Below are positions 2,279 to 53,720 of a stretch of DNA of 64,000 nt, piece by piece. The first letter of the stretch is position 1. Each line of letters begins with the position of its first letter. The DNA is taken from contig NZ_JAUEQY010000045.1 of NCBI RefSeq assembly GCF_030406325.1, positions 1 through 64,000 on the forward strand, given 5' to 3'. The notes beneath the pieces are model-generated. The model was not told the origin of the DNA, searched no databases, and was given only the letters and a program-made list of their open reading frames with translations. The translations under genes were made by a program, and so were the position numbers. The DNA comes from Actinomadura sp. DC4. Its GTDB lineage: Bacteria; Actinomycetota; Actinomycetes; Streptosporangiales; Streptosporangiaceae.

Positions 2279-5092
2279 TCAGCCGCGCCCGTCCGCCCGG
2301 ATGAGCCGGTGCCTCTGCGCGGTGGTCGCGGCCTGAAGACGGCCGGTCACGCCGAGCTTGGCGAGAATGCTGGAGACGTGGTTCCCCGCCGTCTTAACCG
2401 AGATGAACAGCTCCTCCGCGATCTGGCGGTTCGTCCGGCCCTCGGCGATCAGATCCAGCACCTCACGCTCACGCGGCGTCAAGCCGAAGCCCTCCCCGTC
2501 CTCCGCCGGCTCCCCGCCGCCTGAGGCCAGGGAGACGCGCGCGAGCCGCGCCAGCCGGTCGATCCGGGCGCGCAGCGGCCGGGCGGACAGCCGGTCCGCG
2601 TGAGACGCCGCGCGGCTCAGGCGCGTACGGGCCGAAGCCCGGTCCCCGGCCTCCGCGGCCACCTCCGCCGCCCGGACGAGCGCCAGGGCCTCCGGGTAGG
2701 GCTGGCACAGGTCCGCCCACGCGGCCGCGACGCCGTCCCACAGATCGGGCCGCCCCGCCTCGGCGGTGAAGGCGAGCCGGTGGGCGCGCTGGACCGGGCC
2801 GATGACCGGCAGCGCGGCCGCCGTCTCCTCCAGGCCTCCGGCGCCCGCCCGTGCCCCGGCCTCGACCACCGGCCACAGGTAACGCGCGCTCGTCTCGGTC
2901 TCACCGGTGCTCAGCGCCTCCTCCACCAGACGCACGGCCTCCGGCCGCCGGTCCTCGGCGAGCCGCAGATCGACCTCCAGGTGCACCAGCAGAAGGTGGT
3001 CCTGGGCGTAGGAGGTGCCCCGCGTGAAGACCTCCCGCGCGTAACCCGCGCACGTACCGGCCAGACCGAGGTCGCCCCGGCCCAGCGCGATCGTCCCGCG
3101 CAGGACCAGCAGATACGCGTGCAGGCTCGGCGTCGGCGACAGGCCGAGCGCGTGCTCGATCACGTCGCCCGCCTCGTCCCAGCGGCCCAGCGCGATCAGC
3201 GCCTCCGCGAGGTTGCCGGCCTGGGTGGGACCCGACGTACGGGCCAGCCCGGCCCCGGCCGCCGTACGCAACCCCCGCCGGGCCGCCTCGGCCGCCCCCT
3301 CGTAGCGGCCCGCGCCCTGCAGCACGTCCGCCTCACAGCGGCAGGCGTGCATGACGGCCTCGTGATCGCCGCCGGCCCGCTCGCGCGCGGCCACCAGGTC
3401 CGGCAGCCGCCCGTCGACGTCGCCGGCCCGCGCCTCGGCGTAGGCGAGGTTGATGGCGGCCATCCTCTCGGACCCGCGGTCACCGGCCGCCCGCGCCGCC
3501 GCGATGGCCTCCCGCGCGGCCGCCCGGCCCTCCTCCTCACGCGGAATGGTCAGCAGCCGGTTGGCCAGCCTGTTCAGCACAGGCGCCCGCGCCTCATGCC
3601 CGGCCGGGATGAGCCGCGCCGCCTCCCGCAGGTCCTCAAGGTCGCCCGGCAGCCCGAGCGCGACGCGCAGCTCACCACGGCACGCGAGCAACCGGCCCGC
3701 GCGGACCGGACCGGGATCCTCCGCGAGGCCCTCCGCGATCAGCTCCATGGCCCGCGCGCCCTCACCGGCCGCCATGCCCGCGTGCACCGCCGCCTCGACC
3801 ACCTCGGCGCGCGAGGCCGCGATGGCATCGGGGACCCGCTCCCACAGCTCCAGGACCTGCAGGAGCATGTGCAGCTGCTCGGCGTACGCGAGCGAGGCCA
3901 GGGCCTCGCCGGCGGCACGCCACGAGGCCACCAGCGCCCGGCCCGGATCGCGCTCTGAGGCGTACCAGTGATGGGCGGACTCGACCGCCGCCAGACCGCC
4001 CGGGGCGAGGGCCGGGTCCGTCTCCAGCACCCCGGCGTAGCGCGCGTGCAGCACGGCCCGGTCGCCCGGCAGCATGTCCTCGTACAGCGCCTCGCGGACC
4101 AGCGCGTGCCGGAGGACGTAGGCGTTCTCCTCGACCAGCATGAGGTTCGACGCCACCGCCGGCCGCAGCGCCTCCGTCAGCGCCGCGTCGTCCAGCCCGG
4201 TGACCGCCGACAGCAGCCCGTGACCGACACCGGGCCCGCCGGCCGCAGCGGCCCGAACGACCCCGCGGGTACGGGCCGGCAGCCGCTCGAACGGCGTGAG
4301 AAGCAGGTCACGGATCGACTCGGGCACCGGCGCGCCGGCCCGCTCCGACAGCGCCTCCACGAACAGCGGGTTGCCCGCGCTGCGCCGGAAGATCTCCTCG
4401 CTGAGCCCCGCGTCCGGCTCGCGGCCGAGCAGACCGCGAAGCTGGCCGACGACCTCGCTCCTGGTCATCCGGCCGAGCTCGCGGCGCGTCACCCACGCCA
4501 GCCGGTCCAGCTCCGCCCACAGCCGGCGCAGCGGATGAGACCGGTGCAGATGGTCACTGCGATGCGTGACGACCATGACGAGGCCCGGCGCGGCGTGCTG
4601 GTTGCGGGCGAGGAACCCCACCAGCTCCCGGCTGGACCGATCCGCCCAGTGCATGTCCTCCACGACCAGCACGACCGGCCCCTGCCGCTCGGCCAGGCCC
4701 GCGAAGAGCGCCAGGAACTCCTCGAACAGCCGCGCGCGGGCCATACCGCCGTCGCCGCCCGCCGGTCCCAGCGCCGGGAGCAACCGGCCCAGCTCCCGCA
4801 CCTCGCCCTGGGGCAGCAGCGCCGCGACACCGGCCACCCCGAACTCCCGCACCAGACCGCGCAGCACCGCGGTGAACGGCGCGAACGCCAGCCCGTTCGC
4901 GCCCAGCTCCACGCACCCCCCGGCGTACACGCCCCCGGGCAGCCGCGAGGTGAACTCCGCCACCAGCCGGGACTTTCCCACCCCGGCCTCACCGCCGATG
5001 AGCACCGCGGCGGGCGCCCCCTCCCCCGCCCGTTCACAGGCCTCGCCGAGCATGGTGAGCTCCGCCTCGCGCCCCACGAAGACCTCGTTCAC
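2279..5092 (-). CDS. Large ATP-binding LuxR (LAL) transcriptional regulator
   Basis: This 937-residue LAL-type regulator starts with VGREAELTML and a Walker A motif GGEAGVGKS (about residues 33-41). A Walker B stretch VVLVVEDMHWAD (about 137-148) follows, then a long Ala/Arg-rich helical, TPR-like sensor region. The C-terminal LuxR helix-turn-helix is LTPREREVLDLIAEGRTNRQIA...SVKTAGNHVSSILAKL. I place the start at GTG 5092 because VGREAEL then sits at the very N-terminus as in the family and GGGAG lies upstream. The upstream ATG at 5131 falls inside an inverted repeat. LAL proteins typically activate neighbouring catabolic or secondary-metabolite genes; the divergent MFS exporter is the closest candidate target. 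Confidence 0.9.
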   Translation of the reverse strand: MNEVFVGREAELTMLGEACERAGEGAPAAVLIGGEAGVGKSRLVAEFTSRLPGGVYAGGCVELGANGLAFAPFTAVLRGLVREFGVAGVAALLPQGEVRELGRLLPALGPAGGDGGMARARLFEEFLALFAGLAERQGPVVLVVEDMHWADRSSRELVGFLARNQHAAPGLVMVVTHRSDHLHRSHPLRRLWAELDRLAWVTRRELGRMTRSEVVGQLRGLLGREPDAGLSEEIFRRSAGNPLFVEALSERAGAPVPESIRDLLLTPFERLPARTRGVVRAAAAGGPGVGHGLLSAVTGLDDAALTEALRPAVASNLMLVEENAYVLRHALVREALYEDMLPGDRAVLHARYAGVLETDPALAPGGLAAVESAHHWYASERDPGRALVASWRAAGEALASLAYAEQLHMLLQVLELWERVPDAIAASRAEVVEAAVHAGMAAGEGARAMELIAEGLAEDPGPVRAGRLLACRGELRVALGLPGDLEDLREAARLIPAGHEARAPVLNRLANRLLTIPREEEGRAAAREAIAAARAAGDRGSERMAAINLAYAEARAGDVDGRLPDLVAARERAGGDHEAVMHACRCEADVLQGAGRYEGAAEAARRGLRTAAGAGLARTSGPTQAGNLAEALIALGRWDEAGDVIEHALGLSPTPSLHAYLLVLRGTIALGRGDLGLAGTCAGYAREVFTRGTSYAQDHLLLVHLEVDLRLAEDRRPEAVRLVEEALSTGETETSARYLWPVVEAGARAGAGGLEETAAALPVIGPVQRAHRLAFTAEAGRPDLWDGVAAAWADLCQPYPEALALVRAAEVAAEAGDRASARTRLSRAASHADRLSARPLRARIDRLARLARVSLASGGGEPAEDGEGFGLTPREREVLDLIAEGRTNRQIAEELFISVKTAGNHVSSILAKLGVTGRLQAATTAQRHRLIRADGRG

Positions 5093-5114
5093 GCCCCACA
5101 GACTCCCAGATGGG

Positions 5115-5132
5115 GATGCCTTATCCGGCATC
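5115..5132. promoter_or_regulatory. Inverted repeat in the LuxR/MFS divergent region
   Basis: GATGCC-TTATCC-GGCATC forms perfect 6-bp arms around a 6-nt loop, between the LuxR start (5092) and the divergent MFS start (5197). A related GGATGGCGGATA sequence follows at about 5136. The site could be an operator shared by both genes. No clear -10/-35 pair can be assigned. Confidence 0.4.
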
Positions 5133-5196
5133 TAGGGATGGCGGATAGGGAACTCGCCCGATTCACGCGAACCGCCCGCCGCGGGACGCTGTCCCC

Positions 5197-6363
5197 GTGA
5201 CCGATCTCGACGTGAGAACCGCGAAGCGGCCGACCCTGCTGACCCGCCAGATGATCTTCCTGCTGGTGGCCTCGATCGGGTCGACCGGCAGCTTCTACCT
5301 GCTGATCTCGGTGGTTCCGCTGTACGCGGCGACGAGCGGAGCCGGCGGTATGGGCGCCGGACTGTCGACCGGCGTGATGATGCTGGCCACCGTGCTGATG
5401 GAGCTCGCCGCGCCCACCCTGCTGAGCCGCTTCGGATACCGCGCCGGGTTCGGTCTGGGGCTGCTGCTCCTGGGCGTGCCGTCCGCCCTGCTGGCCGCCT
5501 CCCCCGCGCTCCCCCTCGTACTGGCCGTCTGCCTGGCCCGCGGAGCCGGACTCGGGATCGTCGTCGTGGCCGGCCCCGCGATGATCGCCGAACTCGTGCC
5601 CGACGAACGCCGCGGCGAGGCACTCGGCCTGTACGGCCTCGCCGTCGGAGTCCCCGCCATCGTCGGACTCCCCCTCGGCCTGTGGCTCAGCGTCCATCTC
5701 GGCTACGGACCCGTGTTCGCCGCCGGAGCCGCGGCCTCACTCGCCGCGCTGGCCACACTCGTCGGCCTGCCCGCCGCACGAGGACGGATCGACAAGCACG
5801 CCGGAGTCCTCGCCGGCCTCCGCGACGGTGCCCTCGCCCGGCCCGCGACGATCTTCTCCGCCATCACGCTCGCCGCCGGGATCCTCCTGACCTTCCTCCC
5901 CATCGCCGTACCCGCCACCTCCCGCGGCACAGCCGCGCTGGCACTCCTCGTCCAGGCCGCCACCATGCCCCTCGCCCGCTGGCTCGCGGGCCGGTACGGC
6001 GACCGCCACGGCACCGCGCGCCTGCTCCTGCCCTCGGTGTTCACCGCCGCCCTCGGCACCACCGGCCTCATCTGGCTGCACAACCCGTACGCGCTGGTCA
6101 CCGGCGCGGCGCTGTTCGGGATCGGTTTCGGCGCCGCCCAGAACGTCACCCTGACCCTGATGTTCCAGCGATCGCCGAAAACGGAGTTCGGCCGGGTGAG
6201 CGCGCTGTGGAACCTCGCCTACGACGGCGGCATGGGCATCGGCGCCACCGGCTTCGGCCTGATGGCCGGGCTCGTGGGCTACCCGGCGGGATTCGCGCTG
6301 ACCGCCGCCGTGCTGTTCCTCGCCCTCATCCCCGCCCGCCTCGACCGACGGAGAACACCGTGA
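5197..6363 (+). CDS. MFS transporter (12-TM drug/metabolite exporter type)
   Basis: This is a 388-residue polytopic membrane protein with about twelve hydrophobic segments. The first begins at LLTRQMIFLLVASIG. The loop 2-3 region is degenerate (LLSRFGYRAGFG) and the MFS-type motif LVPDERRGEALGLYG precedes TM5. The second half opens at ATIFSAITLAAGILLTFLP. The length suits small MFS exporters. Translation begins at a GTG 104 bp from the divergent LuxR regulator, which may control it. The substrate is unknown. The C-terminus ends in RLDRRRTP, 34 bp before the convergent menD stop. Confidence 0.88.
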   Translation: MTDLDVRTAKRPTLLTRQMIFLLVASIGSTGSFYLLISVVPLYAATSGAGGMGAGLSTGVMMLATVLMELAAPTLLSRFGYRAGFGLGLLLLGVPSALLAASPALPLVLAVCLARGAGLGIVVVAGPAMIAELVPDERRGEALGLYGLAVGVPAIVGLPLGLWLSVHLGYGPVFAAGAAASLAALATLVGLPAARGRIDKHAGVLAGLRDGALARPATIFSAITLAAGILLTFLPIAVPATSRGTAALALLVQAATMPLARWLAGRYGDRHGTARLLLPSVFTAALGTTGLIWLHNPYALVTGAALFGIGFGAAQNVTLTLMFQRSPKTEFGRVSALWNLAYDGGMGIGATGFGLMAGLVGYPAGFALTAAVLFLALIPARLDRRRTP

Positions 6364-6397
6364 CCGACCGGGCGCCTCTACGGCCGCCCGCCTGAGC

Positions 6398-8059
6398 TTA
6401 GGCGTGCAGCGACCGTCGTACGGCCTCGTGCGCCGCCTCACGCATCCGCGCGTGCAGTGCGGCGTTCGCCGCCCGGTCCGTCCGCACCTCCACCATCCGC
6501 AGGCCCTCCCCCGCGATGACCTTCGACAGCCCGTCCATCGTCTCCAGCCGCGCGTACGGCAGACCGTGCGCCGCCGCCACCGAGGCGAGGTCGACCTGGT
6601 GCGGAGTGCCGAAGACCCGCTCGAACGGCTCGGGGAACGCCGACTGCGGCAGCAACGAGAAGATCCCGCCACCCGCGTTGTTGATCACGATCAGCGCCAG
6701 GTCCGGACGCCGGTCCTGCGGCCCGATGATCAAACCGTTCTGGTCGTGCAGGAACGCCAGGTCACCCAGCAGGGCGTACGCCCGGTTGCCGTGCGCCAGC
6801 GCCGCGCCGATCGCCGTCGAGACCAGCCCGTCGATGCCGCTCGCCCCGCGGTTGGCCAGGATCCGGATCCCCCGCCGCGGATGCATCGTCTGATCCAGGT
6901 CACGGATCGGCATGCTCGACGCCGCCAGCAGCATCGACCCACCCGGCATCGCCGACACCAGGTCACGCGCCAGCCGCGGCTCCGACGGCTCGCTCGACTC
7001 ATCCAGCACCGAGTCCACCGCGTTGCGCGCCACCAGGTCGGCCGTCCGCCACCCCTTCAGCCACGCGTCGTCACCCGACACGACCGGGATCTCCGCCTCC
7101 TGCGCCACCTGCGTCGCCGACCGCACCGGATCCGGCCACCGCGACAGCGCCGGCGTCACCACGATGTGCTCCTCCGCACGCCTCAGGAACGACAGCAGCG
7201 GCCGCGACAGTCCCGGCTTGCCCAGCGTCACCACGACCTCGGGCCGATAACGCTCGGCGAACTCCGGCACCCCCAGCAGGAAGTGATGCGCCGACAGGGC
7301 GTGGTCGCCGTAACGCGCGTTGCCGTTCGGCTCCGCCAGCACCGGCCAGCCCGCCATCGACGCCGACGCGACGTAACGCTTGACGTTGACCGCGCCGTCG
7401 CCGACCACCAGCACGCCGCGCCGCGTCGGCGGCACGTGCAGCACCGAACCCGGCGTCGCCGCCCGTATCTTCGTCCACGGGCCCGTCGCGTCGCCGTCAA
7501 GCGGCTCACACCACGACTCGTCCTCATCGGGGGTCAGCGGCTCGCGGAACGCGAGGTTGAGGTGGACCGGGCCCGGATCCGGGCCGAGCGCGATGTGCCA
7601 CGCGCGGCTCGCCAGCGACCGCCAGTACGCCACCATCCCCGGGCGCTCCTCCGGCGTGCCGACCTCAGAGCTCCACCGCACCGCCGAGCCGTACAGCCCG
7701 ATCTGGTCGATCGTCTGGTTGGCGCCCGTCTGACGCAGCTCCGGCGGCCGGTCCGCGGTCAGCACCAGCAGCGGCACCCCGGACTCGTGCGCCTCCACGA
7801 CCGCCGGATGGAAGTTGGCCGCCGCCGTACCCGACGTGCACACCACCGCGACCGGACGGCCGCTCCGCTTGGCGATGCCCAACGCCAGGAACGACGCGGA
7901 ACGCTCGTCGATCCGCACATGCAGCCGGATCTTGGACTGCTCGTACAGCGCCAGCGCCAGCGGCGCCGACCGCGACCCCGGCGCCAGCACCACGTCCGTC
8001 AGCCCGCAACGCAGCAGTTCGTCGACCAGGACGGTCGCCAGAGCGGTCGCCGGGTTCAC
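6398..8059 (-). CDS. menD: MenD, SEPHCHC synthase of menaquinone biosynthesis
   Basis: MenD is the thiamine-diphosphate enzyme that joins isochorismate and 2-oxoglutarate to give SEPHCHC, the first committed step of classical menaquinone synthesis. Motifs: LAPGSRSAPLALAL near the N-terminus, RIDERSASFLALG with the cofactor-activating Glu region, CTSGTAAANFHPAVVEA, and the ThDP/Mg motif GDLAFLHDQNGL...LIVINNAGGGIFSLLP (about residues 431-470). The frame is open to 8104, but GTG at 8059 overlaps the menC stop (GTGA), which gives the family-like N-terminus NPATALATVLVDEL and a protein of 553 residues. It is translationally coupled to menC. Confidence 0.96.
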   Translation of the reverse strand: MNPATALATVLVDELLRCGLTDVVLAPGSRSAPLALALYEQSKIRLHVRIDERSASFLALGIAKRSGRPVAVVCTSGTAAANFHPAVVEAHESGVPLLVLTADRPPELRQTGANQTIDQIGLYGSAVRWSSEVGTPEERPGMVAYWRSLASRAWHIALGPDPGPVHLNLAFREPLTPDEDESWCEPLDGDATGPWTKIRAATPGSVLHVPPTRRGVLVVGDGAVNVKRYVASASMAGWPVLAEPNGNARYGDHALSAHHFLLGVPEFAERYRPEVVVTLGKPGLSRPLLSFLRRAEEHIVVTPALSRWPDPVRSATQVAQEAEIPVVSGDDAWLKGWRTADLVARNAVDSVLDESSEPSEPRLARDLVSAMPGGSMLLAASSMPIRDLDQTMHPRRGIRILANRGASGIDGLVSTAIGAALAHGNRAYALLGDLAFLHDQNGLIIGPQDRRPDLALIVINNAGGGIFSLLPQSAFPEPFERVFGTPHQVDLASVAAAHGLPYARLETMDGLSKVIAGEGLRMVEVRTDRAANAALHARMREAAHEAVRRSLHA

Positions 8060-8979
8060 CGGGCCGCCCCCGCCTGCGCCGCCGCGGCGGCACGCCGCCG
8101 CCACGCCTCGCCGTCGATCTCGTAACGGCCCAGCGCCGCCTCGTCGACCTCCGGGCGGCGCACCTCGATCACGCCGTCCACCGCCGCCAGCGGCTCACTC
8201 ACGACGTCACCCTCCAGCAGCGACAGCGTGCCGAGCCCGCAGGCGTACGGCAGCTCCGGCAGCGCGGCGGCCAGCGCCAGCCCGGCCGCGAGCCCCACCG
8301 AGGTCTCCACCGCGCTGGAGACCACCACGGGCAGCCCGCACGCCTCGGCCACCGCCAGCGCCGCGCGCACGCCGCCGAGCGGCTGGACCTTCAGCACCAC
8401 GACGTCGGCCGCGTCCGCCGCGCGTACCCGCAGCGGGTCCTCGGCCCGGCGGATCGACTCATCGGCCGCGATCGGCGTGTCCACCCGCCGGCGTACGTCG
8501 GCCAGCTCGCCGAGCGTCGCGCACGGCTGCTCGGCGTACTCCAGCTCGCCCAGCGCCTTGATCATCCGTACGGCGGTGTCCGGCGACCAGGCGCCGTTGG
8601 CGTCGACCCGCACCCGCCCGCCGGGCCCCAGCGCGTCGCGTACCGCCTCGACCCGCGCGAGATCGTCCACCTCGTCCTGCCCGGGTTCGGCGACCTTCAC
8701 CTTCGCGGTGTGGCACCCCGAGCCCGCCACGATCGCGTGGGCGGCCTCCGGGCCCACGGCCGGCACGGTCACGTTGACCGGGATCCGCGTCCGCAACGGC
8801 GCCGGCCAGCCCTCATCGGCGGCCTCGTTCGCGGCGGCCAGCCAACGGGCGCACTCGGCCGGGCCGTACTCGGGAAACGGGGAGAACTCCCCCCACCCGG
8901 CCGGGCCACGAACGAGCGCTCCTTCTCTGAGCGTCACGCCGCGAAACCGCGTGCGCATCGGGATGGCGAACACCCGCAA
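8056..8979 (-). CDS. menC: MenC, o-succinylbenzoate synthase
   Basis: This is an enolase-superfamily dehydratase of 307 residues that converts SHCHC to o-succinylbenzoate. The catalytic KVKV lysine motif (TAKVKVAEPG), the first metal ligand in RVDANGAW, the Glu in LEYAEQPC and the Asp in PIAADESIR are all present. A second lysine is in VVLKVQPLGG. The start is TTG 8979 with GAGGGG eight bases upstream; GTG 8973 is possible. It sits between menB (77 bp gap) and menD (GTGA overlap), consistent with one menBCD transcript. Confidence 0.95.
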   Translation of the reverse strand: MRVFAIPMRTRFRGVTLREGALVRGPAGWGEFSPFPEYGPAECARWLAAANEAADEGWPAPLRTRIPVNVTVPAVGPEAAHAIVAGSGCHTAKVKVAEPGQDEVDDLARVEAVRDALGPGGRVRVDANGAWSPDTAVRMIKALGELEYAEQPCATLGELADVRRRVDTPIAADESIRRAEDPLRVRAADAADVVVLKVQPLGGVRAALAVAEACGLPVVVSSAVETSVGLAAGLALAAALPELPYACGLGTLSLLEGDVVSEPLAAVDGVIEVRRPEVDEAALGRYEIDGEAWRRRAAAAAQAGAAR

Positions 8980-51027: not shown

Positions 51028-51498
51028 TCAGGTGGCGCGGCCGAAGTCCTCGGGCGAGATGGTGTCGAGGAACTCGCGGAACTTTTCCACCTCGTCCTCC
51101 TGCTCGTCCGGGATGGCGACGCCGGCCTCTTCCAGCACGTCCTCGCTGGCGAAGATCGACGCACCGGTGCGCAGGGCCAGTGCGATCGAGTCGGACGGCC
51201 GGGCGCTCACCTCGACGCCGTTGGAGAAGACCAGATCGGCGAAGAAGATGCCCTCGCGCAGGGCGGTGATGTTCACCGTGCGAAGCTGGACCTCGAACGC
51301 GTCCAGCACGTCACGGAAGAGATCATGGGTGAGCGGCCTGGCGGGCAGCACACCCTGCTGGGCGAAGGCGATGGCGGTGGCCTCCACCGCTCCGATCCAG
51401 ATGGGCAGATAGCGGTCCCCATCCGTCTCCTTCAGGAGCACGATGGGCTGGTTGGAGGGCATCTCGACCCGTACGCCGACGACCTCCATCTGCTTCAC
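51028..51498 (-). CDS. Bifunctional nuclease (DUF151) family protein
   Basis: The 156-residue protein begins MEVVGVRVEMPSNQPIVLLKETDGDRYLPIWIGAVEATAIAFAQQG and continues PLTHDLFRDVLDAF and ARPSDSIALALRTGASIF, the DUF151 core. Plant and some bacterial members have DNase/RNase activity; the actinobacterial ortholog (Rv1829-like) is uncharacterised. The acidic C-terminal tail PDEQEDEVEKFREFLDTISPEDF is typical. The start is GTG 51498 with GGGAG six bases upstream. Normally it directly follows ftsR, but here a 1.4-kb repeat array intervenes. Confidence 0.94.
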   Translation of the reverse strand: MKQMEVVGVRVEMPSNQPIVLLKETDGDRYLPIWIGAVEATAIAFAQQGVLPARPLTHDLFRDVLDAFEVQLRTVNITALREGIFFADLVFSNGVEVSARPSDSIALALRTGASIFASEDVLEEAGVAIPDEQEDEVEKFREFLDTISPEDFGRAT

Positions 51499-51639
51499 TG
51501 CGGCTCCCTGCTGAGACGGCTTTCCTGAAACCCTTTAGCCCAACGTACACCCCGGCACGGCCGCGACGGGGCCCTGTGGAAGGCCCAAACAGGATCCCGC
51601 GACGCGTACCGGAGGGGTACCTCAGCAGCCCAGAGCGAC

Positions 51640-53000
51640 GTCGGGCACGGGGGTCGGTGCGATGATCTTCGCCCCGACCACACCGGTCCCGGGCGTGCCG
51701 ACCGCCCCCGGCCGTGGCCGGACCGGGCCGCCCCGACGAACGCCGGACGCCGCCGCGAACACCGCGCGATGCCCGAACACCGCTCACCCGGCGAACGGGC
51801 TCCGGTACGCGGGCCCGAGCGCCGTGCGCGGGCCGCTCAGGGCGGGCCTGCCTGCGGACTCGGGGACAGCGAGGCAATCTCCTTGGCCGTCTCCTCGGCC
51901 CGCCCATGCACGCCCAGGCCGCGCCGACGCAGCGGCAGCGATGGACCGGCCGTATGAGCGACCCGCGCAGCTGCGCCCGGACCACGCCGACGCAATGATC
52001 TTCCTTGGGACCGCGCAGGTCCGCTGCGCGGACTACCTCTCGGCCGAGGGCCGGAGCAGACCGCCAGGGCGAATCACCGCCCACACGGCCGGTAGGCGCG
52101 CAGAGATCGAGCGCCACGCGCAGACCACTCGACACAAGCGGCGTACAGGCCGGCGACAGCGACGCGATTCCCCTGGCCGTCCGGGGCACCCGCGTATGCG
52201 CGCCCCAGCCGCGCCGACGCGACGATCTCCTTTCGACCGTGCGGCCATGGGCACGCGCCGGCGGCCGAGGTACCGGAGCAGGACACGGCGAACGGAGCCC
52301 AGGTGACGGTCCAGCGTCGTGCGCGGGCCATTCGGTGCGAGTGCGGGATGCGGCTTCAGCGGCGAGGACACGATCCCCTCCGCCGCGTCTGCGGCCCGCG
52401 CATCCGCGCTCGGGCCACGCCGACGCGAATCTCGACGCGACGGTCTTCCTTGCGACCGCACCGGATCCCGGGCACGCCGACCGCTCCAGGCCGGCGGACC
52501 GCCGGCGCGATCACCGCCCGCGCGGTGAGCAGGTGCCGCTCGAGGATCGAGCGCCACGCGAGCCGCGCAACACGCGCCTGGCGCGCAGGCTCAGCGGCAG
52601 CGACACGATCTCCTTCGCCGTCCCGGGGCACGGGCCGGGCACGTCTCCGCAGCCCACGCACGCGCGCCCAGGCTTGGCCGGCGCCGACCTCCACGCGACC
52701 ATCTTGCCGACCACAGCGGGTCATGCGCGCGCCGACCGCCAGGGCGAACCACCGCACACCACCGCAAACAGGTGCAGGTCAGGAGTCCAACGCGGCGCGC
52801 GAGCCGCTTGACATCATGCAGTTTCAGAACGGCGACGCCATCTCCTTAACCGTCCCCGCAGCCCGCGCATGCATGCGGGCTCCGCCGATGCGGCGGTCTT
52901 CCCGACACAGCGGGTCACGCATGCGCCGACCGGCCACAGACAAGGGGTCCGCGCTGGCCACCAGAGCGAACCACCGCACACCGCCGCGAACAGGTGCAGG
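51640..53000 (-). repeat. Decayed tandem array of ~230-bp repeats derived from the 3' end of ftsR
   Basis: A core equivalent to the ftsR 3' coding sequence (ATCTCCTTGGCCGTCTCCGC and flanks; genuine copy at 53071) recurs at 51877, 52167, 52373, 52608 and 52840. The spacings are 290, 206, 235, 232 and 231 bp. Between cores the same order of phrases returns: GCGAACCACCGCACACC-type, CAGGTGCAGGTCAGG, CCGCTTGACA, GCGCCGACC. Conservation is highest near ftsR and falls with distance. Read on the minus strand the copies resemble the tail AETAKEIASLSLKLHAAL of FtsR but carry stops and frameshifts (nearest copy: AAGTVKEMASPF then stop). No separate gene is supported in the 1.4 kb. Confidence 0.8.
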
Positions 53001-53720
53001 TCAGGGGTCCAGCGCTGCGCGCAGGCCGCTTGACACCAAGGCCGCGTGCAGCTTCAAAGACAGTGACGCTATCTCCTTGGCCGTCTCCGCGGCCCGCCCG
53101 TGCGCGCCCGGGCTGCGCTGGCGCAGCGTCGGGGCGACCGCGGCCTCGATCAGGCCGATCTCCCGGTCGGCGGCGGCCTTGACCGCCCGCAGGTGGCGGG
53201 CCTCGAAGCCGAACGCCCGGAGTTCGGCCGCCGCCCGGGCGACCGTCAGCGCGTCGCCGTCGTACTGGCCGCCCGTCCGGCTGACGAGGCCGAACTCCTC
53301 CAGCTCGGTCAGTACCTCCGGGTCGACGCCGGTGGTGTCGAGGAGTTGGCGGCGGGTGAGGCGCACGTCGCCGGCGTCCTCGTACACGCTGTCGGTGGCG
53401 ACCAGACCGCGCGGCTCGCGGCGGCGCCGGGCCCGCGCTTCGAGCGGCGGCAGGGTCTCGCCCCGGCCGGCCGCGTCGAGGTGTTCCTTGATGACCCGCA
53501 GCGGCAGGTAGTGGTCGCGCTGCGCCGTCAGGATGAAGCGCAGCCGCTCGACGTCGCCCGGACCGAACCTCCGGTAGCCCGACGGGCTGCGCTCCGGTTC
53601 GATCAGCCCCTCCGACTCGAGGAAGCGGATCTTGGAGACGGTGACGTCGGGGAAGTCCGCCGACAGGAGCCCGAGCACCTCACCGATGCTCATGTGGGCA
53701 CGGGCGGCCGAGGCGCTCAT
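53001..53720 (-). CDS. ftsR: FtsR-like MerR-family regulator (Rv1828 type)
   Basis: The 239-residue regulator has an N-terminal MerR helix-turn-helix, HMSIGEVLGLLSADFPDVTVSKIRFLESEGLIEPERSPSGYRRFGPGDVERLRFILTAQRDHYLPLRVIKEHLD. The effector domain LTRRQLLDTTGVDPEVLTELEEFGLV...FGFEARHLRAVKAAADREIGLIE follows. The corynebacterial ortholog activates ftsZ and cell division genes. ATG 53720 is chosen; upstream frame belongs to the garA 3' end. The 3' end of the gene is the apparent source of the repeat array downstream. Its last residues (SSGLRAALDP) are not unusual. Confidence 0.93.
   Translation of the reverse strand: MSASAARAHMSIGEVLGLLSADFPDVTVSKIRFLESEGLIEPERSPSGYRRFGPGDVERLRFILTAQRDHYLPLRVIKEHLDAAGRGETLPPLEARARRRREPRGLVATDSVYEDAGDVRLTRRQLLDTTGVDPEVLTELEEFGLVSRTGGQYDGDALTVARAAAELRAFGFEARHLRAVKAAADREIGLIEAAVAPTLRQRSPGAHGRAAETAKEIASLSLKLHAALVSSGLRAALDP

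Follow-up and report, generated by a model that had tools for sequence, protein, structure and literature searches.

Diverged tandem copies of the ftsR 3′ end fill an enlarged interval between ftsR and its DUF151 neighbour

Why do ftsR and the DUF151 gene lie 1506 bp apart in this Actinoallomurus genome, and what fills the space between them? Within the window, the whole 64,000-nucleotide stretch of DNA analysed here, the minus strand carries an intact ftsR (53001–53720; a homologue of Rv1828 encoding a MerR-type regulator, identified by Pfam MerR_1 at 3e-13 and by tblastn), then a repeat array, and then the DUF151 or bifunctional nuclease (BFN) gene (51028–51498; Pfam BFN_dom, 3e-41). Orthologues of ftsR were found by tblastn in all seven congeners, at 76–88% identity, and the closest named records came from A. 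iriomotensis, an Actinoallomurus MAG and A. spadix. In PMC6683498, the odhI/garA-ftsR-nuclease-MerR cluster is described as strongly conserved across Actinobacteria, and its co-transcription is reported in Corynebacterium glutamicum. We compared one genome per species, taking interval lengths between tblastn alignment ends and not counting second copies of congeners (L017–L019) twice. In place of the 1506 bp, the seven congeners have 635, 312, 274, 105, 103, 103 and 100 bp, and 77 outgroup loci (L020–L096) have 55–385 bp.

The interval is filled by five degenerate copies of a unit of ~230 bp, which comprises the last ~125 bp of ftsR and ~100–160 bp of the DNA behind it. The source of the array, unit F, is the genuine ftsR 3′ end (last ~125 bp) with ~110 bp downstream (52892–53128), and all units lie on the minus strand. 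Self-alignment, alignment and profile match delimited F, unit 1 (52690–52900; 79% identical to F, with frame-breaking gaps) and unit 5, the farthest (51654–51941; 69% identical to F overall). Alignment and profile match delimited unit 3 (52245–52433; 57% identical to F) and unit 4 (51988–52240; 63%), and the same two approaches together with local self-matches delimited unit 2 (52432–52698; 68%). A possible partial unit, also on the minus strand (51948–51995), matched the profile weakly, at 12.7 bits. The units run head to tail, the first being continuous with the intact ftsR, and they share a common start while their far ends vary more. Matches to ftsR start within ~10 bp of one place in units 1, 3, 4 and 5 and in a short piece of unit 2; furthermore, the best ftsR matches of units 1, 2, 4 and 5 extend past the stop codon into homologous spacer. 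The initial annotation had marked five cores at 51877, 52167, 52373, 52608 and 52840 besides the genuine one at 53071, and these proved to be correctly placed and homologous; on its coordinates, the core spacing from ftsR outwards is 231, 232, 235, 206 and 290 bp.

In gapped local self-alignment of the interval, three matches scored 135, 89.7 and 82.4 bits, and another seven exceeded 45 bits. With a GC content of 68–77% in 250-bp steps, such matches might be put down to chance similarity of GC-rich DNA or to an assembly artefact. Both are refuted: the top score in 100 dinucleotide-preserving shuffles was 32.8 bits against the 135 observed, the cores thus aligning well beyond chance in the self-alignment that had been proposed as a check, and misassembly of one copy would not give copies so diverged. 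Tandem Repeats Finder did not report the array with the minimum score set as low as 30; according to the description of that program, arrays less than ~70% alike usually fall below threshold. The profile built from the six units scores its own units at 115–190 bits, values that are high by construction. A scan of the 64-kb window for non-coding clusters of local direct repeats (at least 45 bits, within 600 bp) returned the array and nothing else.

Long open reading frames on both strands could be read as a real gene or reading frame in the interval, a reading to which we give almost no credence. The self-trained gene finder called no gene between ftsR and DUF151, six open reading frames of the interval gave no Pfam match at E 0.001, and the unit profile found no matching sequence in the congener intervals. 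Moreover, there are frameshifts between the units, with frame-breaking gaps in units 1, 2, 4 and 5 of the alignment. The units show a weaker coding pattern, with a residue of codon-position signal in their raw differences from ftsR. These differences amount to 49 of 210, 62 of 210 and 85 of 213 sites at codon positions 1, 2 and 3 (our own sums); in the three nearest congeners, the corresponding counts for the ftsR tail are 9 of 129, 8 of 129 and 49 of 132. Where four orthologues are unchanged, the units keep the base at 150 of 186, 135 of 190 and 48 of 73 sites of the three positions. The residual third-position excess would reflect third-position change in ftsR itself after duplication. The ftsR tails of this genome and of the sister genome G001 differ at 17 of 44 third positions, and their spacers align in short pieces alone; judged from these comparisons, the divergence of the units could lie within the range of drift.

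The initial annotation had raised, as an alternative to duplication, a 3′ element retained for the sake of RNA or DNA structure. Such an element, for example processing sites, an attenuator or an insulator between ftsR and the nuclease gene, would have been multiplied because more copies work better. We regard this as improbable. Phrases do follow the same order in all units of the alignment; a near-palindrome near the unit start pairs 32 of 40 cells, against 6–20 in slid registers; and both sides change in at least one of the six units at 7 of 59 predicted pairs. However, the palindrome is no better than in column shuffles, a fraction of 0.496 of which reach it, and its one covarying pair is reached by a fraction of 0.80. 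The RNAalifold covariation term was unfavourable at +0.89, a test with little power on six sequences, and fold z-scores ranged from −1.8 to +1.4 on both strands with 60 shuffles each. Conserved columns showed no clustering in six permutation tests (p 0.35–1.0). A scan of the array returned no terminator-like site, and the single Rfam match at a relaxed threshold scored 22.7 bits, far below the 44-bit gathering score. With these six sequences, the structural alternative thus found no support in covariation, folding, terminators or column clustering. The same scan returned no sigma-70-like promoter in the array, a result that says little here because the promoter of the DUF151 gene was likewise missed. 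The copies look free of evident constraint, and we infer an array of no evident function.

Mobile-element integration, in which the gene is restored and the displaced tail is left behind, is also expected to produce such a scar, an orphan tail 3′ of the intact gene. Repeated integration into the ftsR 3′ end would account for orphan ftsR tails behind an intact gene. Against this, the units are arranged head to tail and carry homologous spacer in addition to the ftsR end, and none of the six open reading frames gave a Pfam match; we consider such scars very improbable, more so than a structural element.

The relationships among the units also bear on how the array grew. The initial annotation described similarity as declining steadily away from ftsR, a trend that the identities to the ftsR end do not follow (0.79, 0.68, 0.57, 0.63 and 0.69 for units 1 to 5); the local match of unit 5 to ftsR, 73.8% over 164 columns, even ranks second among the units. 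The only younger pair to stand out is ftsR with unit 1 (ultrafast bootstrap 89), and the branches among the older units 2–5 have bootstrap values of 43–47. Units 2 and 4 have their best local match at 75% over 148 columns with an offset of 440 bp, and across the full alignment the identity of unit 2 is slightly higher with unit 1 (0.70) than with unit 4 (0.67); the match between units 2 and 4 could reflect a two-unit duplication. In a tree of 11 sequences, the five congener tails used were split from ftsR and the units with a modest ultrafast bootstrap of 84. Dating by substitutions of the own lineage gave five informative sites with mixed states.

In the seven congener intervals, of which three are long enough for an extra unit and four measure 100–105 bp, the unit profile detected the ftsR end alone and no extra unit. 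Apart from that end, the profile scored at most 1.5 bits there (in G001) and at most 0.4 in 150 shuffles, and neither value is significant. In A. iriomotensis the ftsR end and spacer match as one single unit (profile positions 17–250, 74 bits). When the array was aligned directly to the longest three congener intervals, it gave short, weak matches of at most 32.8 bits, the best of them a phrase shared near the DUF151 side; the far end of unit 5 has a phrase in common with the region before DUF151 in G001 (22 columns, 95%), of which 12 letters occur also in G002. The proposal that repeated partial duplication pushed the two genes ~1.5 kb apart is therefore upheld by the comparison with relatives, with 1506 bp here, 100–635 bp in the congeners and no extra copy there.

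The suggestion of a lineage-specific repeat family was too strong. In the own genome outside the locus, a 321-bp query covering the ftsR end and the unit 1 region found nothing below E 0.01 among the 40 of 109 candidates scored, and both matches to a whole-array query lay at the ftsR locus (2 of 601 candidates scored). When the 1364-bp array was searched against 297 genomes of the family, with two candidates scored per listed genome, eight passed E ≤ 1e-6, namely the own genome, two others whose match was to ftsR itself and five with short matches inside predicted genes. An array of ftsR tails did not appear in the literature among the top matches listed, as judged from titles and abstract openings of open-licence papers.

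On the DUF151 side, outside the array, sequence comparison (L010–L047) outlined a conserved minus-strand block at 51499–51553, 5′ of the DUF151/BFN gene, which holds GTGTACGTTG. This core precedes the gene in all eight Actinoallomurus loci and recurs unchanged, as counted by eye, in 23 of the 26 loci from Actinomadura, and many loci from Streptosporangium, Planotetraspora and related genera have a GTGTTACGTTGAA-like version there; the block is possibly a promoter or regulator site for the DUF151/BFN gene. In the sister genome G001, a separate tandem duplication lies directly 3′ of DUF151 (L174, 1747–2225; offsets 105–135 bp, 82–91% identity), in another spacer than the ftsR array but within the same gene cluster.

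We consider it highly probable that the array is a decayed local tandem duplication of the ftsR 3′ end and its spacer, which grew by unequal recombination and was then abandoned. Duplication and decay are supported by the sequence comparisons; the recombination route and the order of events are what we infer from them. In the founding step, an ancestor of the species would have gained a second copy of a ~230-bp block through one recombination event linking a position ~125 bp 5′ of the ftsR stop codon with a position in the spacer behind the gene. The upstream copy would have stayed joined to ftsR, leaving the extra copy as an orphan tail, and ftsR would have remained whole because the duplicated block covers the 3′ end of the gene alone. 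Unequal recombination between the then-identical units could subsequently have produced five extra copies, with growth ending short of the conserved block before the DUF151 gene. Once the units had diverged, unequal recombination would have stopped and the copies would have decayed, ftsR and unit 1 being the youngest pair. Junction homology at the unit boundary is weak, at ~7 of 9 bases by eye. For the spontaneous duplications detected in bacterial cultures, PMC3411829 deduced a minimum junction homology of 11 bp; the homology here lies below it, and the founding step therefore rests on analogy.

We scanned for further non-coding clusters of local direct repeats of at least 45 bits within 600 bp. 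In 1.2 Mb of the own genome (~11%, with the window excluded), 18 other such clusters were present. On the predictions of a home-made gene finder, three of them span a gene 3′ end or fall just within one (L121, L126 and L127), L135 overlaps one by 6 bp, and two lie at the 5′ side of a gene (L125 and L148). In L127 (8317–8730, contig C56), the 3′ end of a predicted gene (7779–8399) recurs 284 bp downstream at 79.5% identity, the repeated tail sitting just before a tRNA-Ala gene, in an arrangement like that at ftsR. L126 (16074–16438, C56) carries two downstream repeats, 84% and 74% identical, of the 3′ end of a gene predicted on the minus strand, and is a third array of gene tails beside those at ftsR and L127. 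L138 (11606–12336, C56) is a non-coding array of diverged repeats, 64–71% identical and comparable to the ftsR array. In L148 (6010–7681, contig C34), about six tandem copies, 70–81% identical and recurring every 276 bp (92 codons), lie inside one long predicted minus-strand gene (4036–8130), whose product is probably a protein with repeated domains.

Scans of 400 kb in each of three congeners revealed three clusters in G001, one in G007 and eight in G002, and 556 kb of outgroup loci held seven, all with copies 83–100% identical. Per 100 kb of non-coding DNA, this corresponds to 9.8 clusters in the own genome (18), 11.3 in G002 (8), 5.3 in G001 (3), 2.0 in G007 (1) and 5.1 in the 77 outgroup loci (7). 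We make no claim of an excess of such duplications in this genome, since these rates were taken over regions that differ, rest on few clusters and depend on a home-made gene finder. Counting matching rows of at least 45 bits up to 4 kb apart, the ftsR array has ten, two of them overlapping, against six in L138, and under the 600-bp limit each has six. The ftsR array is a large example of a common process, with at least one peer in the sample. It is conceivable, albeit unlikely in our estimation, that intergenic DNA in some large Actinoallomurus genomes expands through recurring tandem duplication of gene ends and spacers, which would show as decayed arrays at ftsR and other gene ends, with weak deletion keeping old copies. 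If so, the ftsR array would be one of dozens, by extrapolation from 1.2 Mb.

The significance of the locus is modest: a conserved actinobacterial gene pair has been driven apart by what is very probably tandem duplication, and the upstream gene was never broken. The array offers a readable record of the growth and decay of a spacer, and, if such arrays prove commoner in the genus than elsewhere, they could serve to measure the growth and loss of bacterial intergenic DNA.

Among known systems, minisatellite or VNTR loci, such as mycobacterial MIRU-VNTR, consist of intergenic tandem units of tens to hundreds of bp that may touch an upstream stop codon, and the ftsR array likewise consists of tandem units between genes. 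In contrast to MIRU-VNTR, the ftsR units are 57–79% identical to their source, occupy a single locus and derive from a gene tail. A second likeness is to partial (3′-end) tandem gene duplication, in which part of a gene and its flank are copied beside the gene and the extra copies lose the frame (PMC3449122, in the part available). That part of the source deals mainly with eukaryotes, whereas the ftsR array is bacterial, has several copies and consists of non-coding remnants alone. Finally, spontaneous duplications arise at short junction homologies, as described in PMC3411829; although those are fresh rearrangements with a deduced minimum of 11 bp of homology and the ftsR array is ancient with a weaker junction match, the founding step proposed here would be of the same kind.
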